The position numbers and the translations under genes were made by a program. A stretch of 64,000 nucleotides of DNA, taken from positions 62,001 to 126,000 of the forward strand of contig NZ_VUYS01000006.1 of assembly GCF_008389435.1 (NCBI RefSeq), given 5' to 3'. Positions 6,520-14,358 of this stretch are shown piece after piece. Numbering within the stretch: the first letter of the stretch is position 1; each line of letters begins with the position of its first letter. Under the pieces are notes generated by a model, which did not search any database, was not told where the DNA came from, and saw nothing but the letters and a program-made list of their open reading frames with translations. The DNA comes from Candidatus Nitrosocosmicus agrestis. Its GTDB lineage: Archaea > Thermoproteota > Nitrososphaeria > Nitrososphaerales > Nitrososphaeraceae.

Positions 6520-9505
<2,986 letters not shown>

Positions 9506-9847
9506 TTTTTTATTTTTTTAATCTAGTCTTTTTTTATCTTGTCTAATGATTTAGTTCCACTTGTGGTAGAAAAGTCAATCATATTAGGTATAGATAGTTA
9601 TTGATTAGTTCTATAATATACTCGCTGTGACATTTCTATTGCTGTTTACACTACAACCAGTCATATAACACAGCATATCTATTAAAATATTATCAAAAAA
9701 ACCATTCAACTGCATAATTGTTATTACGCGAATAGATTTGTTGGACAACATTAAATAAACATTCAATCATATATTCGGTTATTCTATTTAATTGGAGTTT
9801 TCCTATACACGATGATCATCGTAAACACAGTTTACTACATCAACTTC

Positions 9848-9899
9848 ATTCTTTGTCAGTCTTTTATACTCCTCACGTTTTCGACAGGAGACAAAGAAT
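9848..9899. other. ITS hairpin near 23S leader
   Basis: ATTCTTTGTC at 9848-9857 is matched by GACAAAGAAT at 9890-9899, and the inner CTCCT (9869-9873) pairs with AGGAG (9886-9890, sharing one G). The left side carries a bulge of about 12 bases. The two-stage stem lies in the spacer and is a candidate RNA-processing structure of the rRNA precursor. Confidence 0.5.
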
Positions 9900-10071
9900 T
9901 GCATCCGGTGATTTTATCGGGTTGTTCTTTTTTTTCTTTTTATCTGCTGATTATTTATTTGGATTTAGTTGACCAGATAGATGATATGTAATAATACATA
10001 ATATAGTATTTGCTATTACTTACTTTATAGCCAAGTTTGCGCTATTTGTATATAATTCTCAATATTTTTTT

Positions 10072-10097
10072 GGATTTTGGATTTTGGATTTTGGATT
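10072..10097. repeat. GGATTTT 7-bp tandem repeat
   Basis: Three full copies of GGATTTT plus a partial fourth copy are in the rRNA spacer. This is a simple-sequence expansion, probably neutral. Confidence 0.85.
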
Positions 10098-10459
10098 GGA
10101 ACCGCCATACATATGAATTTTGTGCACAGATGTCAATAGGTAAATTGGTAGTACGGTAGATAGATAGATGGATTATTGCCATTCATTTTGTTCTGAATAA
10201 TCCAACCAATCTGCGTTCTGTGGATATTTTGTTATTTTGTTATATGATATCATATAGTATTATTCTTACAATCTTGTTGTTTGTGTATTTGTATGTATAT
10301 ATTTACAATACATGTGTATATTATTATTATTCTTTGATTGAACTAATTTCAAATCTTCGAATCGTTATCGTTTGAATGAAACAATTATTGGAATTGGATT
10401 TTTTTATTGTTTTTTAAATGATCTTAAATTTAGTATAAAAAGAAATATTGTATAGTCTC

Positions 10460-10529
10460 GCAGGCAAGGTAAACAAAACAAAACAAAATTTCTTTTCTTT
10501 TCTCTTGCTTACCTTACCCACTAGCCTGC
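10460..10529. other. 16S 3' trailer hairpin
   Basis: GCAGGC (10460-10465) pairs with GCCTGC (10524-10529), and AAGGTAA (10466-10472) pairs with TTACCTT (10509-10515); an 8-base bulge separates the arms on one side. It starts about 20 bases past the 16S 3' end in transcript order and may be a processing signal. Confidence 0.5.
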
Positions 10530-10551
10530 TACAATATGTGTTTTATTTACT

Positions 10552-12022
<1,471 letters not shown>

Positions 12023-12286
12023 AAATTCAAAATATTAATTTGAATTGTATATGTCGGTTGAATTCCTCTCCATATTTTCCTAATAGCTATATAGTATGGT
12101 ATATGTATGTGTATGTATGCAATGTATATTTTATACAATACATGTAAACAAACACACCAGAACATCTAGTAGCTTTTAGTATCCCATGACCTTTCCTCTT
12201 TTGTTCCTTCTGTTCATTTATTTATTTTAATAAATAAAGAATCAGAAAAAATAAAAGAAAAAAAGTTGGAACATTTATTGAGTTTC

Positions 12287-12321
12287 TTTCTTTGTAGTTT
12301 TTATTTATTACTACAAAGAGA
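12287..12321. other. Perfect inverted repeat in 16S leader
   Basis: CTTTGTAGT at 12290-12298 and ACTACAAAG at 12310-12318 form a 9-bp perfect stem, extendable to 12 with one G-T, around an 11-base AT loop. It lies about 270 bases upstream of mature 16S and may be a leader or processing structure, or an operator close to the rRNA promoter. Confidence 0.55.
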
Positions 12322-12362
12322 AAAGAGTACGATCGAAAACTAGTCAATCAATATACTATAGT

Positions 12363-12380
12363 AATATACATATATATACA
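12363..12380 (-). promoter_or_regulatory. Possible rRNA operon TATA box
   Basis: An alternating AT tract reads TTGTATATATATG on the minus strand. It is the best TATA-like element close upstream of the 16S gene and would start transcription near 12345. Other TATA-like sequences exist in this AT-rich stretch, so the call is tentative. Confidence 0.3.
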
Positions 12381-12675
12381 AATACAACAAGTTTGCAAGA
12401 ATAACAAGATATTACATAACAAAGAACAAAGATAAAACACCAACACAGCAATGACTGACTACATAATGACAATAAAATAACAACCTGTTACTCTACTGAA
12501 CATCTTTAATGCAATCATATATGGCTCTGCATGTTCTTTTGATCCTTCACATATACATACATGTATATTTTTTAGAATATTGTTAGCATTTCTTGTTGTA
12601 ATATTACTTCTTGTAATAAGCAACGTTTTGTATTTTGTATTTTGTAGTATTATACTGCTTTTCTATTTTTTCGTT

Positions 12676-12895
12676 ATCATCTATCTGATCATTCCAATGT
12701 CAGATCCAATCTACCAGGTCAGCACTGGTGTGTTGATCGGATCTCCCTTTTTATTATCGTGATATTGTCAAGAGCGCATCTGGAGGTCTGTAAATCACAT
12801 TGTGGCACTTGCCAACTTCATTACCGACGCCGCCTTTTGTCTTGGATGCGTTCTATTTACAGTCTCTAAATTATTAATATAAATCTTGTTTTTTT
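12676..12895 (+). ncRNA. Candidate structured non-coding RNA (GC island with pseudoknot)
   Basis: This segment is much richer in GC than its flanks and is full of complementary arms. Hairpin 1: ATCTGA (12683-12688)/TCAGAT (12700-12705). Hairpin 2: AGATCC (12702-12707)/GGATCT (12739-12744) with inner pairs ATC/GAT and ACCAG/CTGGT; it overlaps hairpin 1, so the two exclude each other. Then a pseudoknot: 12771-12780 pairs with 12845-12854, and CTGTAAAT (12788-12795) pairs with ATTTACAG (12855-12862). The two right arms are directly adjacent, allowing coaxial stacking. The plus strand is favoured because several closing pairs are G-U there (A-C on the other strand), a TATTATA element lies at 12648-12654, and a T7 run at 12889-12895 could terminate it. 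I do not recognise it as RNase P, SRP or a C/D RNA. Confidence 0.5.
12889..12895 (+). terminator. Oligo-T run after structured RNA
   Basis: Seven consecutive T residues follow the structured segment on the plus strand, about 27 bases after the last paired arm. Archaeal RNA polymerase terminates at such T runs. Confidence 0.4.
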
Positions 12896-13020
12896 AGTAC
12901 ACCTTAAAAATCCGGAGATATATCAAACACTTGAATTAAAATTCGCTCTTTAGACAAGCGATATGATAATATATTAATCATAAACAAATAAAAGATTCTG
13001 TAAATTGACTCTTAGTTGAT

Positions 13021-14358
13021 ATGAAGTCTAACGATTACTTAGAGTTATACAAAGGTAAAACTTTTGAATCCATGAATTTATACTTTAGATCAAGGGAAAT
13101 CTTTCCAGGTGGAATCAACCACAATATCCGATATTATAAACCTTATCCATTTTTCACTCAAAAATCAAAGGGGAAATACTTGTATGACGTGGATGGAAAT
13201 AAATATTTAGATTTTTGGAACGGACATTGGGCCCTAATACTTGGTCACTCCCCGCGCAAAATAGTAAAAAAGATGACTAAACAATTGAAAAAAGGAACTC
13301 TTTATGGAACTGCTAATAAATTGAGTCTCAAATTGGGAGAGGAAATAAACAAAGCTATTCCTAAAGCTGAAAACATTAGATTCTGTAGTACAGGTTCTGA
13401 GGCAACAATGTATGCGATTAGACTGGCAAGATCAGCAACAGGTAAAAGAGTTATTGCTAAAATAGAGGGAGGATGGCATGGCTTTAACACAAACTTGTTA
13501 CAATCAGTTAATTATCCCTATGAAGCAGATGAAGGACTAGGATTAATTGAAGATGAAGGGCATTTCGTCGAATCACTCCAATTCAATGATTTAGAAAGGT
13601 CACTCAAAGTTTTAGACTCTATTAAGGATGATTTGGCAGCAATAATCGTCGAGCCAATACTTGGGGGAGCAGGTTGCATAGTACCTAAAGAAGGTTATTT
13701 AGAAGGATTGCAAGAGTTTGCACAAAAGAATGACAGTTTACTCATCCTAGACGAAATAGTAACAGGATTCAGATTCTCTTATGGAGGGGCGATGGACAGG
13801 TACAAATTAGATCCCGACTTATTTACATTAGGCAAAATAATAGGTGGTGGTATGCCCATTGGAGCAGTGTGCGGAAGGAAAGATATTATGAAACTAGCAG
13901 ATTCTACCGTCGACGGTAATAAGACAACCTACTGTTCGATAGGCGGTGGCACTTTTTCAGCAAATCCGATGACTATGAATGCCGGCTACAACACACTAAA
14001 AAAACTGAAGAAAAATCCCTCTGTATATACCAAAATAAACGAATTAGGAAAAATTACAAGAAATGAGCTAACCAAAGTGTTTGAAGAATGTAATATACAG
14101 GCAGAAGTTACTGGAATGGGATCACTTTTTATGGTGCACTTCTTAAATGACAAAGTTCAGAGTATTAATAGCGCTCTGGATGTTTCGTTGTCTGATAAGG
14201 AACAATTATTCGCATACAATTTTGCATTGATGTCAAAATATGAAATCTTTTTTCTTCCTGGTAAGATGGGTGCTTACTCAAATGCGAATGATACAGATGA
14301 TCCAAAGAAACTTATCGAAGCAACCAGAAATGTTTTTGAAAAAATACCCCGATCGTAA
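13021..14358 (+). CDS. Class III aminotransferase, glutamate-1-semialdehyde 2,1-aminomutase-like
   Basis: The 445-residue PLP enzyme follows the GSA aminomutase pattern: CSTGSEATMYAIRLAR (122-137), Asp244 in LILDEIVTGFR for the pyridine nitrogen, and the Schiff-base Lys272 in TLGKIIGGGMPIGA. GSA aminomutase makes 5-aminolevulinate from glutamate-1-semialdehyde in the C5 heme route. Neighbouring genes are not heme genes, and the sequence diverges from canonical HemL at the substrate side (for example GGWHGFNTNLLQ in place of GCYHGHAD), so it may be a paralog acting on another amino ketone. The start ATG 13021 has a TATA-like ATAATATATT about 50 bases before it. It is convergent with the ABC-2 permease. 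Confidence 0.8.
   Translation: MKSNDYLELYKGKTFESMNLYFRSREIFPGGINHNIRYYKPYPFFTQKSKGKYLYDVDGNKYLDFWNGHWALILGHSPRKIVKKMTKQLKKGTLYGTANKLSLKLGEEINKAIPKAENIRFCSTGSEATMYAIRLARSATGKRVIAKIEGGWHGFNTNLLQSVNYPYEADEGLGLIEDEGHFVESLQFNDLERSLKVLDSIKDDLAAIIVEPILGGAGCIVPKEGYLEGLQEFAQKNDSLLILDEIVTGFRFSYGGAMDRYKLDPDLFTLGKIIGGGMPIGAVCGRKDIMKLADSTVDGNKTTYCSIGGGTFSANPMTMNAGYNTLKKLKKNPSVYTKINELGKITRNELTKVFEECNIQAEVTGMGSLFMVHFLNDKVQSINSALDVSLSDKEQLFAYNFALMSKYEIFFLPGKMGAYSNANDTDDPKKLIEATRNVFEKIPRS

Follow-up and report, generated by a model that had tools for sequence, protein, structure and literature searches.

The window, a stretch of 64,000 nucleotides, carries the rRNA genes of one operon on its minus strand, the 23S gene at 6542-9496, located by an Rfam search of the window, and the 16S gene at 10553-12021. 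A short island (12648-12895) lies between the 16S gene and a divergent, hemL-like aminotransferase gene (13021-14358, plus strand). With 16S and 23S both on the minus strand, the island is therefore upstream of 16S. The aminotransferase scores 356 bits against the curated hemL cut-off of 527, and, judged by this score, may not be a genuine glutamate-1-semialdehyde aminomutase. On neither strand did any Rfam 15 family reach its gathering threshold in 12640-12900, and permissive thresholds brought up no credible match to either strand of the island; weak matches across 12020-13100 were mostly of microRNA type and fell by chance on AT-rich hairpins outside the island. The initial annotation had proposed a structured RNA here, and comparative covariation confirms a genuine conserved RNA at these coordinates, which, as stated, is matched by no known Rfam family. 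The features discussed below are as follows.

12887-12877, minus strand: BRE/TATA box of the rRNA promoter, AAGATTTATAT (conserved; spacing to GAACG)
12853, minus strand: predicted transcription start, the first G of GAACG, approximate (TATA spacing; limit of homology)
12767-12853, minus strand: leader domain 1, made of P1, a GGCGG/CCTCC core, P2 and a short apical stem (covariance model R1, 58.2 bits; covariation; fold)
12702-12744, minus strand: leader domain 2, a hairpin with arms 12744-12735 and 12711-12702 (covaries across the phylum; fold)
12675-12691, minus strand: 5' arm of the outer 16S processing stem (17 pairs with 9986-9970; compensatory changes within the genus)
12322-12335, minus strand: CGATCGTACTCTTT, candidate inner processing-stem segment (sequence comparison)
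12022-12674, minus strand: AT-rich expanded part of the leader, special to the genus (comparison of start-to-16S lengths)
10553-12021, minus strand: 16S rRNA gene served by the leader (Rfam RF01959, 1491.8 bits)
9970-9986, minus strand: 3' arm of the outer 16S processing stem, in the 16S-23S spacer (pairing with 12691-12675)

The rRNA promoter and the distribution of the leader

The TATA part of the promoter lies at 12883-12877 on the minus strand. In 38 of the 41 copies listed, some of which are one locus entered twice, TATA and GAACG are 29-31 nt apart, which is the usual spacing of archaeal transcription starts. When the window is compared with copies from second operons, homology stops at the very base predicted as the start (12853). 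By these computations, and with the start as predicted, the leader lies downstream of an rRNA promoter. A run of seven T on the plus strand, which had been read as a terminator accompanying a plus-strand promoter, proves to be the A7 run beside the minus-strand AAGATTTATAT, that is, the complement of the A-run of the rRNA promoter, so this pair of signals falls away. Aligned DNA upstream of 16S at 20 loci from other genera has a common layout, beginning with the BRE/TATA box (TTTATAT), about 23 nt, GAACGYA, GGCGGC and a variable stem, and continuing with GAyCTCC, TTGCGCT, a hairpin of the type GGATTCAAT...ATTGAATCTGA, processing-stem sequences and 16S.

Searching DNA with the island retrieved strong copies from nearly all genomes of its own genus, Nitrosocosmicus, and weak ones from other genera of the family. 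Wherever a 16S gene was within reach, the copy was located upstream of it on the same strand, and genomes with several operons also had copies at their second and third ones. Genomes of this genus (2.1-3.6 Mb) carry several rRNA operons each, and among cultured ammonia-oxidising archaea Nitrosocosmicus has been described as alone in having more than one rRNA copy (PMC11559005).

We built a covariance model, R1, from 18 leaders of other genera, leaving the own genus out. In the window, this model scored 58.2 bits at 12853-12752 on the minus strand and gave zero matches on the plus strand; it found only two sites in the whole of the own genome. It matched 117 of 151 genomes of the order, 123 of 150 of the class and 49 of 200 of the phylum, several of the last outside the class, with one match per genome and up to three in the own genus. 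All 40 of the distant matches that were fetched lie 24-109 nt upstream of a 16S gene, on the same strand.

Individual operons depart from this pattern in several ways. The second rRNA leader copy of the own genome (L033, G000:C39:1-285), situated at a contig edge, has an insertion between domains 1 and 2 and a different upstream region. The third rRNA operon of one genome (L044, G013:C1:841500-848000) has lost domain 1, whose position is taken by another short hairpin, but retains domain 2 together with a TATA-like box; its 16S gene has the same identity to that of the window as the sister operons. A further rRNA operon (L049, G010:C34) has a strongly diverged domain 1, the island DNA matching it through domain 2 only. 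With domain 1 missing from the one and diverged in the other, the domain is therefore dispensable in some operons. At another locus (L072, G067:C24), a short fragment of a 16S 5' end directly follows an apparent 16S 3' end, an arrangement that looks like a partial tandem rRNA duplication or an assembly artefact.

Covariation and strand of the leader fold

The conserved fold was examined in an alignment of 48 leaders (A4); this alignment is model-based and leans towards the R1 structure, so its pair counts are somewhat inflated, and in it 94.4% of cells are paired, both partners have changed in 27 of 35 pairs, and the number of doubly changed cells is 326, compared with 96 in shuffles and 10-44 in slid controls. 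The compensatory changes that the initial annotation had suggested looking for in homologous loci are thus strong. GGYGG followed by CTCC is present in 47 of the 48 leaders, and the four core pairs linking these two segments are invariant. Variable wobble cells, counted in the minus orientation with one invariant G-U column left out, comprise 140 G-U against 21 A-C, which fixes the minus strand as the RNA strand and overturns the earlier statement that G-U pairs favour the plus strand. The RNAalifold consensus energy is -42.3 kcal/mol for the minus strand versus -29.1 for the plus strand. Folded as a single sequence, the 248-nt island is mildly unusual relative to shuffles (z -2.1 plus, -1.5 minus), and the 87-nt domain 1 alone has an ordinary folding energy (z 0.0); with values this close to ordinary, the case therefore stands on the comparative evidence. 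Inspection of the internal loop by eye established no kink-turn.

All of the complementary arms originally named are present in the sequence at their given positions, and several belong to this fold, on the opposite strand. The pairing of 12771-12780 with 12845-12854 is a real, covarying helix, which on the minus strand is P1, the basal helix of the fold (12853-12845 with 12780-12772), and AGATCC/GGATCT (12702-12744), likewise real and strongly covarying, is the minus-strand hairpin of domain 2. The proposed H-type pseudoknot does not survive, because pairing of its second arm, 12855-12862, which sits inside the promoter between TATA and start, is not conserved: 12855-12862 and 12788-12795 form all eight pairs only in the window and two close copies, four to six of eight in two other own-genus copies, and zero to four in second-operon copies and all other genera.

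These data bear on three other readings of the island. That the leader gives rise to a C/D-box-like guide or an L7Ae-binding RNA is improbable. A ligated leader/trailer RNA has been proposed as such a guide in other archaea (Tang et al. 2002, as cited in PMC7038931), and RTGATGA followed by CTGA occurs within domain 1 in 9 of 35 family copies; however, just 1 of 13 own-genus copies and 4 of 48 across the phylum have both motifs, at positions that overlap the covarying helix P2, and a study from 2026 detected no circular 16S among the Nitrososphaeria that it examined (PMC12918454). A C/D box RNA proper was rejected on the same counts, box C (RUGAUGA) and box D (CUGA) being unconserved.

It is highly improbable that the island encodes a free non-coding RNA of about 220 nt on the plus strand or a leader of the aminotransferase, as first suggested. 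The aminotransferase does adjoin the island in the own genome and in several relatives, and the plus strand of the island folds slightly better than its shuffles, but wobble pairs and consensus energy both favour the minus strand, R1 never matches the plus strand, and the putative terminator is the A-run of the rRNA promoter. Moreover, an aminotransferase match adjoins only some island copies, while second-operon copies, as well as some other genera, keep the fold with no such match alongside. A reading as DNA conserved for its role as promoter or upstream control region of the rRNA operon, in place of an RNA structure, accords with the adjoining promoter and the conserved primary sequence, yet extensive compensatory base-pair change and a conserved part extending downstream from the predicted start, beyond the TATA box, make it just as hard to credit.

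The 16S processing stem and the expanded leader

The segment following domain 2 (12691-12675) pairs with 9986-9970 in the 16S-23S spacer. The score of this helix in the window alone was reached by 2 of 200 shuffles. Every own-genus copy tested has homologous leader and spacer arms except L049, where a different helix lies nearby; the two arms change in step, also when operons of a single genome are compared, as with GATCAGATAGACT/AGTCTATCTGATC in L042 versus GATCAGATAGATGAT/ATCATCTATCTGATC in L043. Leaders of other genera show such pairing too, between the stretch that follows domain 2 and the spacer. Showing both leader/spacer pairing and covariation, 12691-12675 and 9986-9970 are the outer 16S processing stem. 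This also accounts for ATCTGA/TCAGAT (12683-12705), previously taken as one half of a switch between mutually exclusive hairpins: the two sequences are indeed complementary, but the 12691-12675 side pairs with the spacer as part of the processing stem, which leaves no need for a regulatory switch.

Closer to 16S, CGATCGTACTCTTT (12335-12322) is kept in most own-genus leaders and resembles CCGGCCGTACTCTTT, which is found close to 16S in other genera; it is a possible inner segment of the processing stem by this resemblance. The distance from predicted start to 16S is 533-875 nt in the own genus compared with 176-236 nt in other genera of the family. Both flanks of 16S, the leader at 12022-12674 and the spacer at 9497-10552, contain large AT-rich expansions relative to those genera.

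The island as an rRNA leader

Position, strand, conservation, covariation, promoter spacing and leader/spacer pairing, all obtained by computation, indicate that the island is, with very high probability, the promoter and 5' leader (5' external transcribed spacer, ETS) of the minus-strand 16S-23S rRNA operon. On this model, the predicted start of transcription is near 12853, 30 nt past the TATA box, and the first ~150 nt would fold into two local domains as the polymerase leaves the promoter. These domains would keep the leader from misfolding with 16S and guide folding, and could possibly bind processing or assembly proteins. Pairing of 12691-12675 with 9986-9970 would then close the outer stem and bring the ends of pre-16S together for cutting, after which cleavage, at a putative site, would remove the leader to be discarded. 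Cleavage of the 5' ETS (PMC8339473) and ligation of leader and trailer (PMC7038931) are documented or proposed in other archaea; for Nitrososphaeria, the 2026 survey reports no circular 16S among those examined (PMC12918454).

Pre-rRNA leader structures are already known as a kind in archaea. Conserved secondary-structure elements were described on the flanks of archaeal rRNAs by Kjems and Garrett in 1990 (as cited in PMC7038931) and, like those found here, are structured, conserved and situated in leader and spacer next to 16S; the present fold may be one of them, and the near-invariant GGYGG/CTCC two-domain consensus and the genus-expanded leader are described from our data. Leader and spacer pair around 16S also in the archaeal processing stem with its bulge-helix-bulge (PMC8339473, PMC7714728), whereas the outer stem in the own genus lies hundreds of AT-rich nucleotides from 16S, and the bulge-helix-bulge cut by the splicing endonuclease is a feature of the known stem, with 12335-12322 as a candidate segment for it here. 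The crenarchaeal 5' ETS with site-0 cleavage (Durovic and Dennis 1994, as reviewed in PMC8339473) resembles the present leader in preceding the mature 5' end of 16S and in belonging to the TACK archaea; the analysis tied our fold to no CUU cleavage site. Bacterial rrn leaders with boxB/boxA antitermination (PMC10250234) are also structured and directly follow an rRNA promoter, but the present leader has no single-stranded conserved boxA-like segment, and the boxA candidate GCGCTC was rejected, being buried by pairing in the covarying helix P1.

The two-domain consensus with its GGYGG/CTCC core has no entry in Rfam 15 and may represent a new family. We consider it a tentative proposal, with the odds against it, that a single ancient leader RNA of an undescribed family, its nearly invariant core set within the covarying two-domain fold, extends across much of the phylum and serves in cis as a platform devoted to assembly of the small subunit or to control during transcription. 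If this platform reading were true, the eukaryotic U3/5' ETS system and bacterial boxA would be its functional counterparts.

A suspected new non-coding RNA thus becomes a defined piece of archaeal ribosome manufacture, and the covariance model of its consensus marks the start regions of rRNA across much of the phylum, a model missing from Rfam. The genus also offers a natural experiment, in which multi-operon genomes have lengthened the leader by hundreds of bases with the folded domains kept, and have re-matched the arms of the processing stem operon by operon.
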